Shown here: piece by piece, positions 3,799 to 37,250 of the stretch | Layout: every line of letters begins with the position of its first letter | Numbering within the stretch: the first letter of the stretch is position 1 | Virus record (IMG/VR): IMGVR_UViG_3300048918_000580 | Span: 1 to 37,739 of that record | Reading direction: 5' to 3' (one strand) | DNA: 37,739 nt | Origin: a virus | Notes under the pieces: model-generated | Seen by the model: the letters and a program-made list of their open reading frames with translations, nothing else | Database searches by the model: none | Told to the model about the DNA's origin: nothing | Made by a program: the position numbers and the translations under genes

Positions 3799-4716
3799 TC
3801 AGGCCTCCGCAGGGCGGGGCAGCTGGAACGTTTGCTCGAGGAACCCGAGCAGGCGACGAACCTCCAGGCTGGCCAGCGCCAGGTCACTCTCGACCTGGGC
3901 GTCATGGCTTTCCGATTCCTCTCGCGTTTCGTTGAGCACGTCCAGGGCTTTGAGGCGCTTCACGCTCATGTCGTCGGCCAACACCAGGCTCATGCGGTCG
4001 TCGTACACCAAGCCGAGCTGCAGCACCTGCTTGCCGTTGCGCAGGTGCTCCCTCATCTCCTCGCTGTCGAGATCCTGGTTACGGCATCGCATTACCGCGC
4101 CGGCGCGGCTGGCCAAGTCGCGCATCTCGCATTCGTCACCTAGGGCGATGCCGGCGGGGATGGTGTCGTTGGCCAGCCAGTCGGTCATCAGCAGGCGCGG
4201 GCCTTCCTCGGGGGCGAGTGGCACGGCCGGGAACGAACCGAAGGCCTCACGCAGCGCTTTGAGCGTGGTCTCGGCAGTCCGGCGGCTCGGCGTGTCGATC
4301 ACCAGCCAGCCATCAGCGCTGTCGATCCAGCCACGCACGCGGCGCACCACGATCGGGGCATTGGGTAGCATCTCGGTGAGCACGTCCTCGCGGATCCGCT
4401 TACGCTCGCGGTTGCCTACGCGGCGGCCCTCGTCGTCGGCGATCTTCTTGACCTTCTTGGCGACGGCATCGTTGAGCACCGACGCGGGCAGCAGGCGATC
4501 GCTCATCTGGAACACGAAGCCGACGCAATCATTGCTGACGATCGCCATACGGTCATCGCCGATCGCGTAGGGCGAAGCGAAGCCGGCGGCGCTCATTTCC
4601 ATCGGGCCAGGCTCGCGCGCCGGATGCTCGGCCAGCTGGTGACCAATGCCGCGTGCGATCAGGTCGTTGGCCACAGTTGCGCTGAAACGAAAAAGGGAAA
4701 GGTTACAGGGCAGCAT
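3799..4716 (-). CDS. rdgC: RdgC-like recombination-associated protein
   Basis: A 305-residue protein of the RdgC family, full length for the family. Family features include the N-terminus (MLPCNLSLFRF), the central KKVKKIADDEGRRVGNRERK block near residues 86-105 and the acidic C-terminus. Chromosomal RdgC forms a ring dimer around double-stranded DNA and limits RecA loading. A phage copy in the replication operon could protect replicating DNA or channel recombination; that role is inferred. GAGG precedes the ATG. It is followed after 2 bases by the next gene and preceded by a small membrane protein. Confidence 0.93.
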   Translation of the reverse strand: MLPCNLSLFRFSATVANDLIARGIGHQLAEHPAREPGPMEMSAAGFASPYAIGDDRMAIVSNDCVGFVFQMSDRLLPASVLNDAVAKKVKKIADDEGRRVGNRERKRIREDVLTEMLPNAPIVVRRVRGWIDSADGWLVIDTPSRRTAETTLKALREAFGSFPAVPLAPEEGPRLLMTDWLANDTIPAGIALGDECEMRDLASRAGAVMRCRNQDLDSEEMREHLRNGKQVLQLGLVYDDRMSLVLADDMSVKRLKALDVLNETREESESHDAQVESDLALASLEVRRLLGFLEQTFQLPRPAEA

Positions 4717-5042: not shown

Positions 5043-7754
5043 TCACTCCCCCGAGCCCCGCTTCTTACGCGCCGGCGTCGCCGGCGATTCGTTCGGCCCA
5101 CGCTGGAACACCCAGCACTTGACCGTGCGGCCACGGCTTTCGTCGGTGTTGTCGTGCAGCCAGATGCTGCTGTTCACCGCCTTCACGTCGACGAACTTCC
5201 GCGAGCGTGAGCTGCGCAGGTACTTTTTCAGGTCGGCCAGCGGCGGCACGTCCAGGCGGTGAGTAGCCGCCACTTCCTCGAAGTGGTTGAGGTTGACGGC
5301 GATCTCGCCCGGGTTACGGCTGTGGTTGAGCGACGACGCGGCCGCATTCCAGGTGTCCAGGTAGTCGAACCGCTCCCAGAAGATCTGCACGACCTTGTGG
5401 TCGCTGCTAATGGCCTCCTGGCGCTCGATCGCCATGGACTGCACTTCTCGCGCTACGGCGTCGCGCTGCTCATCGGTGAAGCTCACCACCTGGCCAAGCG
5501 CCGCGAACACGGCCAGCAGCTGGCCATGGTTCTTCGCGATACGGGTGGTTTTCACCTCCGGGTGTTCAAGGATGGCCTGCTCGTACTCGCCGGCCTTGGT
5601 CAGGATGGTCTCCATCACCTTGGCTTCGGCGCGCGTGGCCAACAGCAGGAAGTGACTGAGCTGGTCCACCGGCATCTGCTCAAGCTTCAACGCCGCGGCG
5701 CGGGTCTGTGACGTATGCGCCGAACGGTCGACGGTGATGTGGCAGATGCGCTGCATGATCGCTTCGCTTGCCTCCACCTTCGCGTTCTGCGAAATCACGA
5801 CCGTGGCGCGGAAAGGCGGCTCGCGCGTCTCGTTGCCGGAGTTCTTCACGCCGACGGCGCGCACGCTGCGGCCGTTGTAGGCGGTCTTGAGCTCGTCCCA
5901 GTCAAAACGCTTCTTGGCATCGTCGTCGCGATCGCTTTCGATCAGCACGACGGGCAGGTTGGACACCTGGGCAAAATTGCGGGCGCGGGCGGCCAGCGTT
6001 GCCTTGGATGGGTCGAAGCCCTCGTAGTCGCGGCGGCCGAAAAGCTTCCACATGAACTCGATCAGCGTGGATTTGCCGGCGCCGGCCTCGCCGACCAGCT
6101 CAAGGAACGGATAGCTCTTTTGCACATGGCGGATCTGCTCGGCGAACAAGCTGCCGAACCAGAACGACAGGGCGACCAGGCCTTTGGCGCCGAAGCACTG
6201 CCACACCAGGTCGAGCCAGTCGGCCCGGTACTCGCTGCGGTCGCGGTTAATGGTGAGCTGCGGCGAGGCGGTCAGCGTTTTCAGGTTGAGCCGGCCCAGC
6301 TCGAAGTAATCCTCGTCGTTGAGCGCATGCACCACGCCGTCCTTGATGGCGATATCGCCCATCACGTAGGCCGCGTGCTCTTTGCTGTAGCCGATGTAAT
6401 CGATCGTATCGACAGTTTTGATGTTGAACAGCTGCCGCTGGATGATGCGATCGAGCTGCTGGCTGGTACCGGTGAACACCGCACCTGGTGCGATGCTGAG
6501 CAGGCGCTTCTTGAACTCGCTGGCACTGGCCAGGCTGCCACCCGCAAAGGTGTTCTTCACCGACCCGCCGTTATGCGGGAAGCTGATGCGGTAGTAGTAC
6601 CAGGACTCATCCGTGACGGCGTTTGCCTGGTAGTACAGGGGTTGCGGGTTGCAATTGGCGATCTCGATGTTGTCGCACGACTCGGCAAGGGCCTGCTTGC
6701 GGCGCTCGCCTTCGTCCTGGTCGGGATCCTTTTCTTGAAGCTGCTGGGCGGCCTTGTCGTAGGCCTTGATGTCCAGGTCGAACCAGTAAAGGCGATCGCC
6801 GAAGTCGTAGAAGAACGTCGCCATGCTGGTCCGGTTGTAGATCAGCAGCGCCTTTTCCTGGTGATTGCGCGCGATCAACAGGGAGCCTTCGTAGCGGCAG
6901 TCCTCGATGTCGCGGGTGCCGAGCTTGTCGGCGAGGTGCAGATCGTTCCAGTCCTGCTTGCCCTTGGTCGTCTGCTTGACCGTGGCGGCTTCGCACTTCC
7001 AGGCGTCCTTTTGGCCACGCTTCACCCAGCGCTGCGTGTAGTCGCGGCCTGCAGCATCGCCATCGAGCGCCCACACCAGCAACGGGAGATCCTTGCCGCG
7101 TGCGAGTGCAAGGCGACGCAGGAAGTCGCCCGGGTAGTTGTTGCACGTCATGGCTGACACGGCGGTGATGCCGTGATGGCCCAGCGCGATCGCGTCGAAG
7201 ATGCCCTCGACGATCCACAGTTCGGTGCATTTGGCCAGCACTTCGCCCGTCACAGTCGGCGGCACCCACACTTCGCCGGCGTAGCTTTTGCCCGGCGCAA
7301 ACCGCGCCTTCATCTTGCCGAAGCGATGCGGCCGATCGATCAGGCGCTCCCAGTAGCCACCACCCGGCAGCGGGAAGCGCACCGTGGCCGTCGTCGCCTG
7401 GCTCTCCGGATCCTTGAACCACTCCTGCGTGTAAGCGTTCTGCACGCGGCTGAGGTTGAAGCCGCGCGAGTTCTTGAGGTACGCGTCGGCCGCGGCGTGC
7501 GGGTTGGCCTCGGTCTTTTTGAAACGCTCGGACCAGTCCTCGAACAGGTCGGGGAACAGATCCTTGACCGATGCCTCGAAGCCGCAGTTTTTCAGGCGGC
7601 CGCAGCGCACTACCCACGGCGCGCTCGCCTTGGCGTAGAGCTCGGGCTTGCCGCACTGCGGGCACTTGCCACCGCGCAGGAAATCCTTCCGCGGCTTGCA
7701 GCCGTAGCGGTCGGTCAGCTCGCGGGTGATGTCGTGGAGAAGTTCCGGCGTCAT
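5043..7754 (-). CDS. TOPRIM primase with P-loop helicase-like ATPase
   Basis: The phage replication protein, 903 residues. The N-terminus has a zinc-binding module (CPQC at residues 31-34 with further Cys about 22 and 28 residues on), as in DnaG-type primases. A TOPRIM domain follows at about 175-240 (WIVEG with the catalytic Glu, then DGDAAG with the paired Asp). Near residues 553-562 is a clear Walker A motif (GEAGAGKST), followed by an ATPase region with VVLIESDRDD as Walker B. It should prime and unwind DNA at the phage origin, like P4 alpha or P2-satellite primases. The ATG at 7754 forms an ATGA overlap with the upstream gene. Confidence 0.93.
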   Translation of the reverse strand: MTPELLHDITRELTDRYGCKPRKDFLRGGKCPQCGKPELYAKASAPWVVRCGRLKNCGFEASVKDLFPDLFEDWSERFKKTEANPHAAADAYLKNSRGFNLSRVQNAYTQEWFKDPESQATTATVRFPLPGGGYWERLIDRPHRFGKMKARFAPGKSYAGEVWVPPTVTGEVLAKCTELWIVEGIFDAIALGHHGITAVSAMTCNNYPGDFLRRLALARGKDLPLLVWALDGDAAGRDYTQRWVKRGQKDAWKCEAATVKQTTKGKQDWNDLHLADKLGTRDIEDCRYEGSLLIARNHQEKALLIYNRTSMATFFYDFGDRLYWFDLDIKAYDKAAQQLQEKDPDQDEGERRKQALAESCDNIEIANCNPQPLYYQANAVTDESWYYYRISFPHNGGSVKNTFAGGSLASASEFKKRLLSIAPGAVFTGTSQQLDRIIQRQLFNIKTVDTIDYIGYSKEHAAYVMGDIAIKDGVVHALNDEDYFELGRLNLKTLTASPQLTINRDRSEYRADWLDLVWQCFGAKGLVALSFWFGSLFAEQIRHVQKSYPFLELVGEAGAGKSTLIEFMWKLFGRRDYEGFDPSKATLAARARNFAQVSNLPVVLIESDRDDDAKKRFDWDELKTAYNGRSVRAVGVKNSGNETREPPFRATVVISQNAKVEASEAIMQRICHITVDRSAHTSQTRAAALKLEQMPVDQLSHFLLLATRAEAKVMETILTKAGEYEQAILEHPEVKTTRIAKNHGQLLAVFAALGQVVSFTDEQRDAVAREVQSMAIERQEAISSDHKVVQIFWERFDYLDTWNAAASSLNHSRNPGEIAVNLNHFEEVAATHRLDVPPLADLKKYLRSSRSRKFVDVKAVNSSIWLHDNTDESRGRTVKCWVFQRGPNESPATPARKKRGSGE

Positions 7755-8017
7755 GCCTGGTCGCCTTCGATGGGCGTCCACATCGCGCCGCGCGGACCGC
7801 AAGTGGCGCCCATGCGGCGCATCCGGTCGCAGTCAGTTCCCAGATACGTGCCGCCGCGTTCGTCGATAGCGCGCCTGTCATCGATGAACACGTCCATTTC
7901 CTCGACGGTGGCCGGCACCGGGCCGCATTCGGGCGGCAGGGTGCAAAGGAGAAAGCGCGCACCCGGAAGACGCGTATGAAACGCGCAGGTGGAGCAGGTG
8001 GGATAGGCGATGCTCAT
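7751..8017 (-). CDS. Cys-containing hypothetical early protein
   Basis: An 88-residue protein starting MSIAYPTCSTCAFH. The six Cys (C8, C11, C25, C31, C63, C73 approximately) with a leading CxxC suggest a bound metal or Fe-S cluster. Both ends are ATGA overlaps: with the primase start downstream and with the previous gene stop upstream, so it is translationally coupled to the primase. No family is recognised; a primase accessory role is possible from position only. Confidence 0.75.
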   Translation of the reverse strand: MSIAYPTCSTCAFHTRLPGARFLLCTLPPECGPVPATVEEMDVFIDDRRAIDERGGTYLGTDCDRMRRMGATCGPRGAMWTPIEGDQA

Positions 8018-8271
8018 GCCGCCACCCCGCGCACCGGCATGCCGAGCACATCGGCCACCCACTTGAGGTGGGCGAACGCGAGCGGGAAGTGAGCGCCGCC
8101 AACGGCGAGGCACGGCGTGCCGGCAGCCAACACGCACACCTGGTCGCGCGGAGCACTGGCCACGGCGACGTGCATGCCGCGCAGCGTGATCGCCGCGGTG
8201 ACGTAGCCGGTCGTGCTGTTAACGACGACCAGGTCGAGGCCGATGTCCTCGCGCAGGGGCAGCGTGCTCAC
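8014..8271 (-). CDS. hypothetical early protein
   Basis: An 85-residue protein with beta-rich pattern and no charged coil. It starts with GTG at 8271; the codon overlaps the TGA of the preceding gene as GTGA, which is the reason for this start. Its stop overlaps the next ATG. The function is unknown. Confidence 0.7.
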   Translation of the reverse strand: MSTLPLREDIGLDLVVVNSTTGYVTAAITLRGMHVAVASAPRDQVCVLAAGTPCLAVGGAHFPLAFAHLKWVADVLGMPVRGVAA

Positions 8272-8528
8272 GCCACACCGCCCTTACCGGTGACGGCGAT
8301 GTCGAGCTGGGAAATAGCGCGGTCGAGCCTATCGAATACGCTATTGAGCAGCTCGTAGACCTCGTCGGGGCCGACCATCTGCGCGTGCAGGCCTGCCGTG
8401 ATGCAGGCGTTGGCGGCGAAGAGAGCGACTTTCGCGGAGCGCAGTTCGTTGAGGCTCGACGCGATGTTGTTCTGGCGTTGGCTCTGGGCGCGCAGGTGTG
8501 CGCGTGCGACACGGTGACGTGCAGTCAT
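8268..8528 (-). CDS. first gene of early operon, C4-controlled hypothetical
   Basis: An 86-residue, largely helical protein (RVARAHLRAQSQRQNN then SLNELRSAKVALFAANA). The ATG at 8528 has an AGGA Shine-Dalgarno sequence at 8537-8540, and this site lies inside the 10-base segment complementary to the loop of the putative antisense RNA. The protein is therefore the probable direct translational target, and through the chain of overlapping genes so is the rest of the replication operon. The frame stays open upstream to 8852, but that stretch is the structured leader. Position is analogous to the first genes under P4 CI or P1 C4 control; function unknown. Confidence 0.75.
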   Translation of the reverse strand: MTARHRVARAHLRAQSQRQNNIASSLNELRSAKVALFAANACITAGLHAQMVGPDEVYELLNSVFDRLDRAISQLDIAVTGKGGVA

Positions 8529-8535
8529 GGGGCAA

Positions 8536-8580
8536 TTCCTAAGTCGGGTTATGCCCGACACCCCAACGCCAATTAGGGTG
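8536..8580 (-). promoter_or_regulatory. downstream antisense target over the RBS
   Basis: On the minus-strand RNA, TTGGCGT (8566-8572) sits in the loop of a CACCC/GGGTG hairpin (8559-8563 with 8576-8580). It is followed by a perfect 6-bp hairpin (8543-8548 with 8554-8559) and then GACTTAGGAA (8536-8545), which includes the AGGA ribosome binding site for the ATG at 8528. Both heptamer and decamer are exact complements of the two single-stranded parts of the putative C4 RNA. This is the layout of the b'/a' targets in P1 C4. Confidence 0.75.
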
Positions 8581-8589
8581 ACGGACGAC

Positions 8590-8645
8590 GCAAGGTTGGC
8601 GTACCGGGGACTTAGGAACCCGGCAGGCCCGAAGGCCTCCCTGCG
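8590..8645 (-). ncRNA. C4/CI-like antisense immunity RNA
   Basis: On the minus strand a UUCG-tetraloop hairpin (AGGCC/GGCCT, 8625-8629 with 8634-8638) is followed by a second hairpin with stem CCGGG/CCCGG (8604-8608 with 8619-8623). Its 10-base loop, TTCCTAAGTC, is the exact complement of the RBS segment 8536-8545 and of most of 8739-8747. After it comes unpaired ACGCCAA (8596-8602), complementary to TTGGCGT on both sides. Two hairpins and two short pairing regions between two target copies is the hallmark of the P4 CI and P1 C4 antisense RNAs. Ends are approximate; such RNAs are processed from the leader, in known cases by RNase P. Confidence 0.8.
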
Positions 8646-8738
8646 CCGCCCGCCATAGAGCGAACTGCGCTGCGTGCAAGCGTACGCCGAAGCCAGACGA
8701 AAAAAATGCGCCTGCATCGGTCGATGGGCGCTTGCGCG

Positions 8739-8764
8739 CCTAAGTCCATTGATCGGGACGCCAA
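8739..8764 (-). promoter_or_regulatory. upstream antisense target copy
   Basis: In the minus-strand transcript this precedes the antisense RNA. It carries TTGGCGT (8758-8764) in the loop of a GGGA/TCCC hairpin, and GGACTTAGG (8739-8747). These are the same two target words found over the RBS at 8536-8572, in the same order, so the antisense RNA could pair with either copy. In P4 the equivalent elements are seqA and seqC around seqB. Confidence 0.7.
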
Positions 8765-8796
8765 TCCCGGTCGCCGATTTGGCGGCGACGGCCGAA

Positions 8797-8825
8797 GCAT
8801 CCCTCCGGTGTGGGGCGAGTGTCAA
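8797..8825 (-). promoter_or_regulatory. candidate promoter for early leader
   Basis: A perfect TTGACA (-35, 8820-8825) with a poor -10 (GGATGC, 8797-8802) at 17 bp spacing. Transcription would start near 8790, just before the first target element. The -35 is convincing, the -10 is not, so the start is uncertain. Confidence 0.4.
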
Positions 8826-8933
8826 CGGTTGTTCGCGCTTTTTCGTGGTCATAAGGCAAGCCGTATCCGTTCCGGCCGTCGCAGGGACAGCCGGTCAAGG
8901 TGAGAACGAGGGTCGAGCGCTACGGCGCGGGTG

Positions 8934-9340: not shown

Positions 9341-9679
9341 TCAGTTGAGCGCCATGGGCGCGTAACGGGTGGATCCGGCCTCGGTGCTGGGCGGCGTAGT
9401 CGAGGACGGGGGAAGCTGGCCAGCGCCCGACTGGGCCGCAGGCACGACGATGTCGTTGGAGCGGCGCTCCACGATGGGGAGAGAGACCGCGCGGGAAGGG
9501 GTGAGGCTGGGCACCAGCGTGCGGACGATGCCGAGATGCGCCACGCAGCGGTGGCCACACTCGACGTTCATGCAGTCGAGGTAGATCTCGCGCACCAGGT
9601 TGCTGAGCTGCCGCGATGTGATGGTGCGCATGCGGCCTTGGCAGTGCGGGCAGGCGATCGTATTCCGGATGGCTGTCAT
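9341..9679 (-). CDS. ogr: Ogr/Delta-like zinc-finger late activator
   Basis: A transcription activator of 112 residues. The four Cys at 10, 13, 36 and 41 give exactly the C-X2-C-X22-C-X4-C finger of P2 Ogr and P4 Delta, and the surrounding sequence (CPHCQGRMRT, YLDCMNVECGH) fits the family. Ogr proteins bind a dyad about 55 bp upstream of late start sites and contact the RNA polymerase alpha subunit. The protein is longer than Ogr (72 aa) because of a Pro/Ser-rich tail. Here it lies early in the repressor-controlled transcript rather than after gene D as in P2. Its likely targets are the dyads at 23917-23940 and 30860-30883. Confidence 0.9.
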   Translation of the reverse strand: MTAIRNTIACPHCQGRMRTITSRQLSNLVREIYLDCMNVECGHRCVAHLGIVRTLVPSLTPSRAVSLPIVERRSNDIVVPAAQSGAGQLPPSSTTPPSTEAGSTRYAPMALN

Positions 9680-9711: not shown

Positions 9712-9942
9712 TTACTTAGGCTCAAGGCCGCCCACGGGCGGCCTTGCTGTTGCATGCGCCGCCTGACCTTCGAGGTAGACGGCCAGCACGTAGCCCGCAA
9801 CGGTGGTTTTCTTGTGCCCGGCACAACGGACCGCCTCAGCGTGCTGCGCAGGGGACAAGGAAATGCCGACACGGACACCCTTGCCAGGGTTTCTTGGCGC
9901 ATAGGACCGACGGCTGCGGCCACAGACAGGAGAGTTATTCAT
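9712..9942 (-). CDS. small basic protein, possible ribbon-helix-helix
   Basis: A 76-residue, Arg-rich protein and the first leftward gene opposite the repressor. The middle (GKGVRVGISLSPAQHAEAV followed by two short helices) resembles a ribbon-helix-helix DNA-binding fold, as in Cro/Arc-like regulators, but similarity is weak. The only ATG is at 9942; no clear Shine-Dalgarno precedes it, so the start is uncertain. By position it could be the Cro or Cox equivalent of this phage. Confidence 0.55.
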   Translation of the reverse strand: MNNSPVCGRSRRSYAPRNPGKGVRVGISLSPAQHAEAVRCAGHKKTTVAGYVLAVYLEGQAAHATARPPVGGLEPK

Positions 9943-9980
9943 GGCTATGGGTTACGATGCCGAAGTGTCACACAAAACGA

Positions 9981-10009
9981 ATGCTATCCCACGTATTGTG
10001 GGATTACAA
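9981..10009 (-). promoter_or_regulatory. leftward early promoter
   Basis: A -35 TTGTAA (10004-10009) and a -10 TAGCAT (9981-9986), each 4 of 6 matches, are separated by exactly 17 bp. The spacer is filled by the first operator palindrome, so repressor binding would block polymerase. Transcription would begin near 9974 and run into the 9942 gene, ogr and the next gene. Confidence 0.6.
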
Positions 10010-10024
10010 CCCACAGACAGTGGG
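9986..10024. promoter_or_regulatory. twin repressor operators
   Basis: Operator 1 is ATCCCAC-GTATT-GTGGGAT (9986-10004, perfect 7-bp arms). Operator 2 is CCCAC-AGACA-GTGGG (10010-10024). Their centres are 22 bp apart, about two helical turns, on one face of the helix. They lie in the divergent region between the leftward early gene and the CI-like repressor start, so they are the probable binding sites of that repressor. The inner half-sites also form a GTGGG-N7-CCCAC palindrome. Confidence 0.75.
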
Positions 10025-10048
10025 ATCATCTCAGTGCAGGGTAAAAGC

Positions 10049-10453
10049 ATGGAAGTGATCACCGACGACGTGGTGGATCGACTGCAAAAGGTGTTCGGCG
10101 TGACCACGGATGTCGCCCTCGCCTCGGCGCTCGGACTCTCGAAGAATGCGCCGGGCAACTGGCGCAAGCGCAGCGCACCGCCTTACGAAATCTGCGCTCA
10201 GGTGGCCGCGGCGCACAGCGTCTCGCCGACCTGGTTGCTCTTCGGCGTCGGCAGCCAAGATTTAGAGGCCTGCCGTGCAGCGGCGGCCCAGCCTGACCAC
10301 AAACTGACGCCACCGGCAGAAAGAATCACTCAATTTGTGGGCCAGTGGGACGCATCCCGTGCGGCTGATGAGGTCGTGTGGCTTGAGCAACAGCTCAAGC
10401 GTTCCGTTCCCGAATACGCCGACTGGCTGGTCGCGTCAGGAAACCGGATCTAA
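10049..10453 (+). CDS. CI-like phage repressor
   Basis: A 134-residue protein with the N-terminal helix-turn-helix domain of the phage CI repressor family (Phage_CI_repr): DDVVDRLQKVFGVTTDVALA, then LGLSKNAPGNWRKR as recognition region, then PYEICAQVAAAHSVSPTWLLFG. The C-terminal part (about 80-134) is short and lacks the LexA-like Ser/Lys peptidase, so simple RecA-induced self-cleavage is unlikely. I start at 10049, with AGGG 7 bases upstream; the open frame begins at 9941, but that would put both operators inside the gene. It should maintain lysogeny by closing the leftward promoter. Confidence 0.85.
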   Translation: MEVITDDVVDRLQKVFGVTTDVALASALGLSKNAPGNWRKRSAPPYEICAQVAAAHSVSPTWLLFGVGSQDLEACRAAAAQPDHKLTPPAERITQFVGQWDASRAADEVVWLEQQLKRSVPEYADWLVASGNRI

Positions 10454-10525: not shown

Positions 10526-10589
10526 CAACACACCCGCCACGCCTCTGCAGCTGTTCATTGCTGTAAGCGCAAATAGGCGGGTTTTTTTT
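10526..10589 (+). ncRNA. short structured RNA upstream of Abi gene
   Basis: From the predicted start near 10526 to the T run at 10582-10589 the transcript would be about 64 bases. It can fold into an outer stem CCCGCC/GGCGGG (10533-10538 with 10576-10581) and an inner stem-loop TGCAGC/GCTGTA (10546-10551 with 10560-10565). A small RNA with its own promoter and terminator directly in front of an Abi_2 HEPN gene matches the known arrangement of AbiF loci, in which a noncoding RNA controls the toxin. The exact fold and ends are inferred. Confidence 0.6.
10533..10589 (+). terminator. terminator between small RNA and Abi gene
   Basis: CCCGCC (10533-10538) pairs with GGCGGG (10576-10581), followed by eight T. 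The loop is long but contains its own stem. It would end the small RNA and also the repressor transcript, and leave the Abi gene to read-through transcription. Confidence 0.65.
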
Positions 10590-10610
10590 GCCTGGAGTAC
10601 GGGGGGAGGG

Positions 10611-11522
10611 ATGCGGTACACCAAGGGACCGTTGACCTACGCGGAGCAGCTGCAGCTGTTGCGCGACCGAGGCATGCAAATCGAAGATGCGCAGCGCGCC
10701 ATGCGCTACCTCGAACGAGTCGGCTATTACCGGCTCATGGGCTACTTTTTCCCGTTCCGCAAACCTGGCCTCGACGACTATATAGATGGAGCATCGTTTG
10801 AGCGCTCGGTGCAGCTTTATGAATTTGACCGTGGCCTCCGTGCCCTCGTGTTGGATGCCATTAGCCACGTCGAAGTAGCGGTGCGCACGTCGGTCACCTA
10901 CGAAATGGCCCACGCCTACGGCGCGTTTGGTCATTGTGATCCCGCGAACGTGGCATTCCAAAAAAACGACTGGCACGCCCGTTGGATTGATGACGTTCAT
11001 CAGGAAACGGAGCGGGCGCGGGAGACCTTCATTGATCACTATCGAAACAAGTACGACGACTTCCCCAAGCTGCCCATCTGGATGGCCACCGAGGTCATGT
11101 CGATAGGCACCGTGTCGAAGCTCGTGAAGGCAATGCATCCGGTGGATCAAAAGCGTATCGCCGATCGCTTTCAGCTACATGCCCCCGTCTTCAGCAGCTG
11201 GCTGCATACCATCGTCGTGGTTCGGAATATTTGTGCGCATCACGGGCGGTTCTGGAATCGCGTCTTTGGTGTGCAACCGGTTCGACCGCGCGCCGGCGAA
11301 TGGCAATACATGACCGATCAGCTTCCGAGCGATCGCTCGTTCTTCATGCTCCTAGTGCTGCGCAAGCTCTTGAGAAGCACAACCGAAGATGGCGAGGCAT
11401 GGCGTGACCAGGTCACCGCCCATCTGGTACCAATGCTTCAGGATCCAGGTCACCTTTTGTCGATGGGCGCGCCAAAGGATTGGGAGAACCATCCATTGTG
11501 GCGAGCCAAGCGCCGACCCTAA
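10611..11522 (+). CDS. Abi_2 family (AbiD/AbiF-like) HEPN abortive infection protein
   Basis: A 303-residue protein of the Abi_2 family. Typical segments are the N-terminal LTYAEQLQLLRDRGM and YLERVGYYRLMGYFFPF, the middle LYEFDRGLRALVLDAISHVEVAVRT (quoted in parts by helix), and the C-terminal HEPN RNase motif RNICAHH (Arg205, His210). HEPN nucleases of this class cut RNA and stop growth when a phage infects. The gene lies between the repressor and the tail gene D, and has its own promoter, so it should be expressed in the lysogen as defence cargo. GGGGAGGG precedes the ATG. Convergent with gpD. Confidence 0.9.
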   Translation: MRYTKGPLTYAEQLQLLRDRGMQIEDAQRAMRYLERVGYYRLMGYFFPFRKPGLDDYIDGASFERSVQLYEFDRGLRALVLDAISHVEVAVRTSVTYEMAHAYGAFGHCDPANVAFQKNDWHARWIDDVHQETERARETFIDHYRNKYDDFPKLPIWMATEVMSIGTVSKLVKAMHPVDQKRIADRFQLHAPVFSSWLHTIVVVRNICAHHGRFWNRVFGVQPVRPRAGEWQYMTDQLPSDRSFFMLLVLRKLLRSTTEDGEAWRDQVTAHLVPMLQDPGHLLSMGAPKDWENHPLWRAKRRP

Positions 11523-24826: not shown

Positions 24827-25371
24827 GGCGTCCGGGCCTGCATGTCCTGGTAGTCACGGACCAGCTGCTGCTGAAACTGGGCGTCTTGCGCCTCCCGCTT
24901 CCGTTCCCAGTCTTGCAGGGCGGTCAGCTGCTCGGCGATTTCGTGGCAGGTGCCGTAGTTGCCGACGATGACACTGGAGGCTGCAGACGCTGTAACGGCC
25001 GAGGCTTGCGCATCAGCGGCTCCGGGGCTTGGTAGCTCGGACAGATCAGCCGCGGCGTCGTGCAGGCGCACAAAGCCAAGAGGCAGAGGGAAATCACGAT
25101 CAACGCTCGGCGGCACATAGTCGGGCACCTTCAGCTGGATGGAATGGGTGGTGTCATGCACGACGATGAGGCGGTCGACGAAGTGCGTGACCGTCACCAC
25201 GGTGAGGCTGGCTGCCTGCGCGTCGAACTGCGCCGTAATGGCCTGCGTTTGGGCGAGCGTGAGCTTTCCCCGAAGCGAGCCCAGCTCGATGTGTTGCCAT
25301 CCGGCGACGACAGCGGCGGCGATCAGGAGCACGCCCAGGAAGATCAGCAACGGCTTAAGCAGAAAGTTCAT
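24823..25371 (-). CDS. lysB: inner-membrane spanin Rz (LysB-like)
   Basis: A 182-residue i-spanin. A hydrophobic N-terminal anchor (FLLKPLLIFLGVLLIAAAVVA, about residues 3-23) is followed by a Gln/Ala-rich periplasmic helix (GSLRGKLTLAQTQAIT) and a C-terminal coiled coil (QLTALQDWERKREAQ). It fuses inner and outer membranes together with the embedded Rz1. It is longer than lambda Rz by a Pro/Asp-rich insert around 80-110. It starts in an ATGA overlap with the methyltransferase. Confidence 0.88.
   Translation of the reverse strand: MNFLLKPLLIFLGVLLIAAAVVAGWQHIELGSLRGKLTLAQTQAITAQFDAQAASLTVVTVTHFVDRLIVVHDTTHSIQLKVPDYVPPSVDRDFPLPLGFVRLHDAAADLSELPSPGAADAQASAVTASAASSVIVGNYGTCHEIAEQLTALQDWERKREAQDAQFQQQLVRDYQDMQARTP
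24924..25118 (-). CDS. lysC: embedded outer-membrane spanin lipoprotein Rz1
   Basis: A 64-residue frame lying entirely inside the Rz gene in another reading frame. It has a short basic N-terminus, a hydrophobic stretch and a lipobox (LALCAC, with cleavage before the second Cys at about residue 19), then a Pro-rich mature protein (TAPATKSPSS end). These are the classical features of Rz1-type o-spanins, which reach the outer membrane and bind Rz. The ATG is at 25118. Confidence 0.88.
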   Translation of the reverse strand: MCRRALIVISLCLLALCACTTPRLICPSYQAPEPLMRKPRPLQRLQPPVSSSATTAPATKSPSS

Positions 25372-26111
25372 GCGGCGTGTTCCTCGCGTTGGGTGGAGGC
25401 TTCGGCCATGCGGCGCATGGCGACCTGGGCGTTGACCTGGTCAAGCTCGGCGCCGATGAATCGGCGGCCTTCCAGGAGCGCAGCGACGCCGGTGGTACCG
25501 GATCCCGCGAACGGATCGAGCACGATGCCGCCCGGCGGACAGCACTTGACCATTTCGCGCATCAGTTTCGTCGGCTTGCCGGTGACGTGATGCTTGTCCG
25601 ACTGGCGGATGGATTCGACGTGATAGCCGGGCAGGTAGCCGACGTCCTCGCGCGGTGGCATGTCGCCATTGCTGCCCCATACGGCGTACTCGGCGCCGTT
25701 GCGGAATCGGCCAGGTCCGCTGGGGCGACCGGCAGGCTTGAGCCAAGGGAACACACCGCGCCAGGTAGCGCCGGCCGTCTGCAGCGCGTCTGTCGTGCTT
25801 GGCAGCTGTCGCCAGTCGGTAAACAGCACGACCGGCGCGCCAGGCTTGGCGATGCGCAGGCACTCGGACAGCCACAACGTGACCCATAGCGTCCAGCTTC
25901 GCTGGTCGCGGTTGTCGCCGCTGAAGTTGCGGTGTTCGCGCTTTACGTCGCTGCCGACGTACTTGGAGACGGTGGACTGTTGCGTGCGGGCGGTCATATG
26001 CAGGCCGCCGGAGCTGTACGGCGGATCCGTGATCACCGCATCGACGGAGGCATCGGGAAGGGAACGCAGGAAGGCAAGGCATTCGCCCTGATGAAGCTGA
26101 AACGGGGGCAC
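25368..26111 (-). CDS. DNA N6-adenine or N4-cytosine methyltransferase
   Basis: A 247-residue DNA methyltransferase of the beta class. The catalytic motif DPPY is at residues 29-32, and the S-adenosylmethionine binding motif DPFAGSGTT comes near the C-terminus at about 195-203. The target-recognition region lies between (GDNRDQRSW; WLKPAGRPSGPGRF). No restriction partner is present, so it probably protects phage DNA from host enzymes or marks it. It starts with GTG and sits inside the lysis cassette, between endolysin and Rz, with an ATGA overlap to Rz. Confidence 0.93.
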   Translation of the reverse strand: MPPFQLHQGECLAFLRSLPDASVDAVITDPPYSSGGLHMTARTQQSTVSKYVGSDVKREHRNFSGDNRDQRSWTLWVTLWLSECLRIAKPGAPVVLFTDWRQLPSTTDALQTAGATWRGVFPWLKPAGRPSGPGRFRNGAEYAVWGSNGDMPPREDVGYLPGYHVESIRQSDKHHVTGKPTKLMREMVKCCPPGGIVLDPFAGSGTTGVAALLEGRRFIGAELDQVNAQVAMRRMAEASTQREEHAA

Positions 26112-36257: not shown

Positions 36258-37250
36258 CTATTTGTCCTCATCTCTCTTCGTCACAAGTTCGTGCTGGTAG
36301 TAGGCATCTATGGGGTCGTCGAGGATCGCGTACGAACTAGATAGATTTGTTGGATCAGGATCGAGCCATGGATCGATATTCTCGGCCTTGATCGCAATGA
36401 TGCATCGGTCGTGCCCGGCCTCTTGCACTTCGGGCGGAGGGTCGCGCGTGATAGCCGCAAATCCATAGAAGCCCGGGCGATCGCCTTCCGGCTCGACGTA
36501 GCGCCAGAGGCAAGCAAGCACCATGTCTTGGTGCGGCTCTGGCGTAAAACCGATTTCAACCTTCAGCTCACGCTCTCCAGGCACCAAAGAACGCCGCTCA
36601 TTGTCGTGTAGGTTCACGCTCTCGAAAAAGCGGCTCGCAACGACGATGCCGTGCTGATAGCCGAACAGGCCCTTCCAAACGTGACGCAAGCTGTCTTTGC
36701 GTGCGTTGTAGCACCCAGGCTTGGCTTTTTCGTCGGTCTCGGTCCATCCGATGGGACGGGCGCGATAGCGCATGGGCACAATCAAGCGCTCGCCTGTCGC
36801 CGGGTCGCGAATGAGTACTGGGCAGTAGTGTCCTGGCCAGATACGGCCGAAACCTTCACCCTTGGCCATGGTGCCCAGTTCTTCGAGCTTCTCCCGGGCT
36901 GCTTTGATCTTGTTGTTTGCGACGCGCTGGTCGTTCGCCGCCTTCTTGGTCGGCTTGTGCGATGCGAGGACGGCCTCAGCTTTCATCAGGCGTTCCGTCT
37001 GCTCGGCGATTTCCTTTTCGAGCACCAGGGATACGCTGCGGTAAGCATCTACTACGGCGTCCCTGACTTGCCGTTCGCCATCGTTGCGCGGATCCATGAA
37101 TGCATCGGCCATCGCCTTGGGCATGATCTTCACCAAGTCGCCGTTGGCCTTGCGCTCCCAAAACAGTTGCACAAAAGCTTTGATGTCGAGCTTGCCGCCG
37201 AAGCGCTCGTATTTTCGATAGTCCGCGTAAACCTGCGCCGAATAGCACAT
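36258..37250 (-). CDS. SRAP/YedK-like abasic-site DNA-protein crosslinker, long variant
   Basis: A 330-residue SOS response-associated peptidase family protein. The invariant Cys2 follows Met1 (MCYSA in place of MCGR), the Asn of GCYNAR lies at about 180, the Glu of SRFFES near 206 and the His of AGHDRC near 278, so all four catalytic positions of YedK/HMCES are present. Canonical SRAP proteins have about 220 residues; this one has an extra helical coil of about 100 residues after the first strand (EKEIAEQTERLMKAEAVLA). SRAP proteins crosslink to abasic sites in single-stranded DNA. It is convergent with the PIN-like gene (9-base gap). Cargo or host. Confidence 0.88.
   Translation of the reverse strand: MCYSAQVYADYRKYERFGGKLDIKAFVQLFWERKANGDLVKIMPKAMADAFMDPRNDGERQVRDAVVDAYRSVSLVLEKEIAEQTERLMKAEAVLASHKPTKKAANDQRVANNKIKAAREKLEELGTMAKGEGFGRIWPGHYCPVLIRDPATGERLIVPMRYRARPIGWTETDEKAKPGCYNARKDSLRHVWKGLFGYQHGIVVASRFFESVNLHDNERRSLVPGERELKVEIGFTPEPHQDMVLACLWRYVEPEGDRPGFYGFAAITRDPPPEVQEAGHDRCIIAIKAENIDPWLDPDPTNLSSSYAILDDPIDAYYQHELVTKRDEDK

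Follow-up and report, generated by a model that had tools for sequence, protein, structure and literature searches.

A probable P4-kind C4 antisense RNA switch ahead of the primase-helicase of a P2-like temperate phage

In this P2-like temperate phage the early operon carries a C4 antisense RNA with two paired targets, nested in a long open frame ahead of the primase-helicase gene. The cassette is with good confidence considered a functional termination and translation switch of the P4 C4/CI kind, added to a CI-type repressor. The window, i.e., the whole stretch of DNA analysed (37,739 nucleotides), comprises positions 1 to 37,739 of the virus contig IMGVR_UViG_3300048918_000580. L numbers designate the loci and phage contigs compared with it.

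P2-type virion genes of the window are Terminase_5/6, P2 GpR, GPD, sheath, baseplate J and gp25 (Pfam); the portal match is weak and lies under the Pfam cut-off. An integrase gene is encoded. The assignment to P2-like phages made in the preliminary description is thus borne out by terminase, tail and baseplate genes. Of two hits in genomes, one is to a MAG with the label Eremiobacteraeota, which may reflect a binning error, and therefore no host is taken from that hit. Genes for RdgC-like protein (3799-4716, minus strand), SRAP (36258-37250, minus) and DNA methylase (25368-26111, minus) are also present. The leftward early operon consists, in order, of a 76-aa protein, an Ogr/Delta-like zinc finger, a phrog_3461 protein, the C4 region, three small ORFs and the primase-helicase. 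Features in and next to the operon, outside the C4 region, are as follows.

9941-10453, plus strand: CI-type repressor (Phage_CI_repr, PF07022, E 5.9e-10); the true start is probably ATG 10052.
9981-10009, minus strand: putative leftward early promoter, -35 TTGTAA and -10 TAGCAT, proposed from sequence and palindrome search.
9341-9679, minus strand: Ogr/Delta-like zinc-finger gene of the early operon (PF04606, E 3e-18).
8014-8271, minus strand: small ORF of 85 aa in the putatively controlled operon; it overlaps the ORFs on either side and has homologues in L002 and L122.
7751-8017, minus strand: small Cys-rich ORF of 88 aa in the same operon; in C4-less relatives the homologue starts at the ATG that starts the eta-like frame here.
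5043-7754, minus strand: primase-helicase, the replication gene proposed to be under control (Toprim_2, weak DUF5906, phrog_1139).

The antisense RNA and its targets are all encoded on the minus strand and occupy the following positions.

8574-8660, minus strand: C4 antisense RNA (RF01695), 85.3 bits against a cut-off of 45, E 1.3e-15, full length of the model (1-87).
8609-8618, minus strand: antisense loop a', TTCCTAAGTC, with a 10-nt exact complement in target 2.
8596-8602, minus strand: antisense tail b', ACGCCAA, with a 7-nt exact complement in each target.
8739-8764, minus strand: target 1 (equivalent of P4 seqA), b1 TTGGCGT at 8764-8758 and a1 GGACTTAGG at 8747-8739, exact complements of the C4 tail and loop.
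8750-8802, minus strand: c4-a1b1 target structure (RF03163), 48.7 bits against a cut-off of 46.7.
8536-8572, minus strand: target 2 (equivalent of P4 seqC), b2 TTGGCGT at 8572-8566 and a2 GACTTAGGAA at 8545-8536, exact complements.

Search with the Rfam covariance model confirms the C4-type antisense RNA named in the preliminary description, full length and above cut-off. The two-hairpin RNA placed there at about 8645-8590 is real, though with bounds too short: the model structure extends over 8660-8574 and comprises a 17-bp closing stem, two inner hairpins and a single-stranded tail. The GG at the C4 5' edge agrees with the RNase P processing site described in PMC5320573. Coordinates of both target pairs (b1/a1, b2/a2) and the target-antisense-target order on the minus strand hold as first given. 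Exact complementarity of loop and tail to the targets likewise stands, with 9 and 10 nt for a' and 7 and 7 nt for b'; the 9-nt complement in target 1 belongs to CCTAAGTCC (8616-8608).

Chance complementarity is ruled out by shuffles together with co-variation. Mononucleotide shuffling of the window flanks, repeated 20,000 times, never gave all four complements together. In seven phages aligned at the C4 region the targets are conserved as pairs, and a'/a1/a2 and b'/b1/b2 change in concert: loops are, for example, TTCCTAAGTC, TTCCTGTATC and TTTTCCTTTTGC with matching targets GACTTAGG, GATACAGG and GCAAAAGG, and tails are ACGCCAA, CTGCTAA and CCGCCAA with respective targets TTGGCGT, TTAGCAG and TTGGCGG. 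The sole partial exception in the clade is formed by L004, L007 and L010. Their loop (CTCCTTTGGC) fits a1 but is mismatched to target 2 (GCCTTAGGAA) at two internal positions, perhaps the trace of a recent loop exchange. Pattern scan of viral contigs yielded 118 unique C4 loci (L047-L165) with 42 loops. Averaged over 60 distinct loop/tail combinations, complementary runs measure 7.1 and 7.7 nt in the case of the loop, and 6.9 and 6.9 nt in that of the tail; re-assignment of antisense to flank (500 times) gives at most 5.6, and 0/500 reach the observed value for a or b, upstream or downstream. Loop a' and tail b' are freely combined in the 118 loci, 10 loops occurring with more than one tail and 8 tails with more than one loop.

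The segment from the putative promoter of the C4 transcript to the C4 RNA contains the following elements.

8795-8824, minus strand: putative promoter of the C4 transcript, -35 TTGACA at 8824-8819 and -10-like GATGCT at 8800-8795.
8701-8789, minus strand: isrK-like leader RNA (RF01394), 51.8 bits against a cut-off of 50, a marginal match.
8700-8731, minus strand: predicted t1-like intrinsic terminator, GCGCCCATCGACCGATGCAGGCGC-A-TTTTTTT, hairpin of -12.7 kcal/mol followed by seven T.
8727-8740, minus strand: alternative hairpin GGCGC-GCAA-GCGCC, sharing its 3' arm with the terminator and overlapping a1 by 2 nt; 5 of 5 pairs invariant in 7 sequences.

The putative promoter has a weak -10, and both hexamers are invariant across 7 aligned sequences. 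It is not listed by a sigma-70 consensus scan, nor is the hairpin 8731-8700 by a simple consensus terminator scan; both scans are uninformative here. The terminator-like hairpin, which was not part of the preliminary description, separates target 1 from C4 in the manner of P4, and its outer 4 and inner 4 pairs are kept in all relatives. The P4 t1 and eta/kil experiments are reportedly those of Forti et al. (1999) and Briani et al. (2000). The isrK-like leader is probably a short terminated transcript. The terminator 5' arm can pair alternatively with GGCGC 8740-8736, and the arms are nearly invariant in relatives. In computed folds of the leader the minimum-energy form uses the 8727-8740 hairpin, and occupation of the targets gives the terminator form. 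The alternative hairpin is thus a possible antiterminator, and the modelled change of fold suggests antisense-promoted termination. The antiterminator idea is not uniform in the clade, because the unbound leaders of L007 and L018 already fold as terminator; in these two phages C4 may only strengthen it.

The whole region, also missing from the preliminary description in this respect, lies inside one reading frame whose ATG is located upstream of the proposed C4 promoter.

8268-8852, minus strand: eta-like ORF of 194 aa with ATG at 8852, in frame with the kil-like ORF and spanning targets, terminator and C4; the frame is open in the window and 7 relatives.
8268-8528, minus strand: kil-like ORF of 86 aa (ORF analysis), the terminal part of the eta-like frame, with its start codon 7 nt past a2.

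The kil-like ORF is without match in Pfam, PHROG and PADLOC; its Shine-Dalgarno-like AGGA is included in a2. No strong Shine-Dalgarno sequence is found at the eta start. Just ahead of this start, C4-bearing and C4-less relatives alike retain a hairpin CCGGC...GCCGG (8884-8862, minus, in the window). Across the window and seven relatives (8 sequences) the frame is 182-195 aa long. Upstream of kil these sequences contain 0 stops in the kil frame vs 35 and 26 in the other two, and indels are multiples of three. Three null models expect 9.3, 8.7 and 6.6 stops, and stop-free runs were obtained in 0 of 5,000 trials with each. No amino-acid conservation is found in the eta part upstream of kil. Ribosome passage, not protein, seems to be selected there, because the codon positions are equally variable; to judge from these sequences, it is apparently translation that is kept. 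In a set of 38 non-redundant C4 loci, 22 have a kil frame that is open far past C4, as against 4 loci for each of the other two frames. The P4 record has C4 (8507-8420) inside a frame of 197, 198 or 199 aa, depending on the start codon, with an in-frame kil of 65 aa. P4-like loci, as grouped by spacing and loops rather than by full annotation, and the clade of the window read through the same RNA in different phases.

The CI-like repressor named earlier is confirmed by the PF07022 match. Ahead of the early operon the palindrome TCCCACAATACGTGGGA forms exactly the 17-nt spacer of the TTGTAA/TAGCAT promoter and is, from its sequence and position, a plausible CI operator. CI homologues are found in C4-bearing and C4-less relatives alike, and the protein layer is therefore independent of the RNA layer. 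Of the two immunity layers suggested in the preliminary description, both components are present; the layers are not simply redundant, and the main effect of C4 would be silencing of its own internal promoter, which is outside the coverage of the CI operator. Adjoining the repressor, at 10533-11522 (plus), is an abiF RNA (RF03085) directly ahead of an abortive-infection gene of the Abi_2/AbiD type.

In the proposed mechanism the CI-type repressor of a lysogen would block the upstream early promoter, and the internal promoter 8824-8795 would keep firing. Its transcript would begin past the eta start codon, and for this reason the leader would be untranslated. The transcript would be cut to C4 RNA. 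Pairing with target 1 would favour the terminator 8731-8700, and pairing with target 2 would cover the ribosome-binding site of the kil-like ORF. Transcription would stop ahead of the primase, which would thus be off. C4 would act in trans, so that incoming phages with the same loop and tail would be silenced. Upon infection or induction the early promoter would be on, and ribosomes starting at 8852 would translate the eta-like frame through targets, terminator and C4, keep these structures open and allow transcription to reach the primase.

The cassette is missing from about half of the close relatives. Among relatives whose primases are about 84% identical, it is present in L004, L007, L010, L013 and L015, in part in L014, and absent in L002, L003, L005, L006, L008, L009, L011, L017, L020 and L031. 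In most cassette-less relatives the Cys-rich ORF begins at the eta ATG. L002 has an in-frame deletion that fuses the first 24 eta codons to the kil end; C4 and targets are lost there, and the -35 has decayed to TTAAGA. The primase tree requires 8 cassette changes by parsimony, at least 5 of them on well supported branches, and the cassette is no more clustered on it than shuffled labels. L122 has the loop and early region of the window (64-86% protein identity) with a different tail and a different primase (47%). Since relatives swap or lose the cassette, it looks like an exchangeable second immunity switch. The primase frame of L006 stops after 495 codons, unlike in its relatives, by frameshift or sequencing error.

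Three other explanations were weighed against the termination and translation switch. C4 might control translation only, as in P1: the site of the 86-aa ORF would be covered, the downstream genes would fall by coupling or Rho polarity, and the T-run hairpin and the long frame would be idle. This agrees with the AGGA of a2 ahead of the ATG, with the predicted C4 duplexes, stronger for target 2 (-37.3 kcal/mol) than for target 1 (-27.8 kcal/mol), and with the tight overlaps of the downstream ORFs, which suit coupling. The conserved terminator between target 1 and C4, matching the isrK model, and the eta frame kept stop-free argue against translation-only control, which is regarded as unlikely. 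The cassette might also be a decaying remnant, or a passenger captured from a P4-like satellite, that plays no regulatory role at present. Absence of the cassette from about half of the close relatives, which retain the primase, and the decay seen in L002 would be expected of a remnant; the open frame, the -35, both hairpins and all four of the pairings are nevertheless intact and co-vary across relatives, and a remnant is hardly credible.

Activation of the IsrK type would make the leader 8789-8701 act in trans on the longer mRNA or titrate C4, as an induction trigger and not an immunity device. The isrK match above cut-off and the precedent of Gifsy-1 IsrK (PMC4825925) point in this direction; the Gifsy-1 IsrK/orf45/anrP region shares with the window an isrK match and a terminated leader RNA, with a processed RNA and a small ORF after it. 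It differs in that for the short RNA of Gifsy-1 translational activation of an antirepressor operon was demonstrated (PMC4825925). In the window no anrP-like antirepressor gene is recognised downstream, the conserved pairing is that of C4 with its targets, and P4, nearest in layout, uses the same region as termination target. An induction trigger of this type is accordingly rated very unlikely, and the switch of P4 kind is retained.

Comparison with both P4 and P1 had been drawn before from the target-antisense-target order. The order holds; P4 fits better than P1 because of the terminator between target 1 and C4, the eta-like frame, the replication gene downstream and the lack of a recognisable antirepressor. 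P4 and the window share the sequence target 1, terminator, C4-family RNA, target 2, kil-like ORF and replication operon; the P4 record matches the C4 and isrK models above cut-off in the same order, and both have a kil frame that reaches back past the promoter, for a total of about 194-199 aa. Unlike in P4, the cassette of the window sits in a P2-like phage with its own structural genes and with a CI-type protein repressor and promoter upstream. The eta-like frame reads C4 in another phase, with 133-nt spacing vs 143 in most P4-like loci, and shows no detectable protein similarity to P4 Eta, so that homology of the two was rejected. The primase-helicase is only remotely similar to P4 alpha (E 0.003), and its designation as a clear alpha homologue finds no support past this weak match. 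The P4 mechanism of CI RNA, seqA and seqC is summarised in PMC4825925.

P1/P7 C4 belongs to the same RF01695 family (P1 match 68.8 bits) and likewise has two antisense segments and two targets, target 2 being at a ribosome-binding site; P1 C4, however, controls the antirepressor ant, whereas the operon of the window leads to primase. P1-type antirepressor control was rejected, as the ORFs ahead of the primase are without Pfam or PHROG match and no antirepressor is recognised among them. The first description of C4 RNA, in P1 and P7, dates from 1990; in 2010 it was reported to be a widespread motif (PMC2864571). C4-like RNAs are seen in Acinetobacter, Burkholderia and Xylella. Those of Acinetobacter baumannii and Burkholderia cenocepacia have the C4 structure and a variable a' loop, and their processing was seen by RNA-seq (PMC5320573); a joint isrK-C4 transcript is reported in PMC4603805. 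In the accessible parts of these sources they differ from the present case in that they are presented as genome-encoded sRNAs, and neither phage targets nor an overlapping frame are analysed. Within the incomplete coverage of the literature searched, nothing was found about P2-like phages with C4, about an overlapping frame outside P4 or about loop and tail codes that recombine. C4 RNA itself is known; what sets the present case apart is its context, nesting and modularity.

In a wider reading, put forward tentatively and rated at somewhat below even chance, P2-like phages carry an exchangeable P4-type cassette with the antisense RNA inside a gene kept open for ribosome passage and not for its protein, and loop and tail specificities are shuffled combinatorially as a two-part immunity code common to P2-like phages and P4-like satellites. 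RNA-based cross-immunity or cross-talk between these two groups would then be possible. P2 is the classic helper phage and P4 its satellite. P4-style RNA immunity in self-sufficient P2-like phages, added to a protein repressor and swapped among close relatives, would mean that immunity changes through the exchange of cassettes and not only through divergence of repressors. The same structured RNA held open in two reading phases suggests that the P4 eta/kil translation switch is a general design. Because each phage's specificity can be read from 12 + 7 bases, predictions of exclusion between phages are directly testable.

The earlier statement that P2-like phages normally use protein repressors alone holds in part. 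No C4 match is obtained in P2, 186, HP1, Dobby and Smp131; P2, 186 and HP1 resemble the window in that a protein repressor (C/CI, operators) faces the early operon, and differ in having no C4 match. Several other P2-like lineages do carry C4 (L028, L032, L039/Bracchivirus U2F1, L081/L146, L112 and L163), and for this reason C4 in P2-like phages is described here as unreported in searchable papers, not as unique. The P2-like contig L028 has two C4 modules, at 410-497 and 8788-8873, differing in loop and tail specificity; one is located ahead of the primase and the other ahead of a gene with an antirepressor-looking N-terminus. One bacterial genome contains four tandem C4 matches within 1.4 kb (G285:C9:1700-3092).
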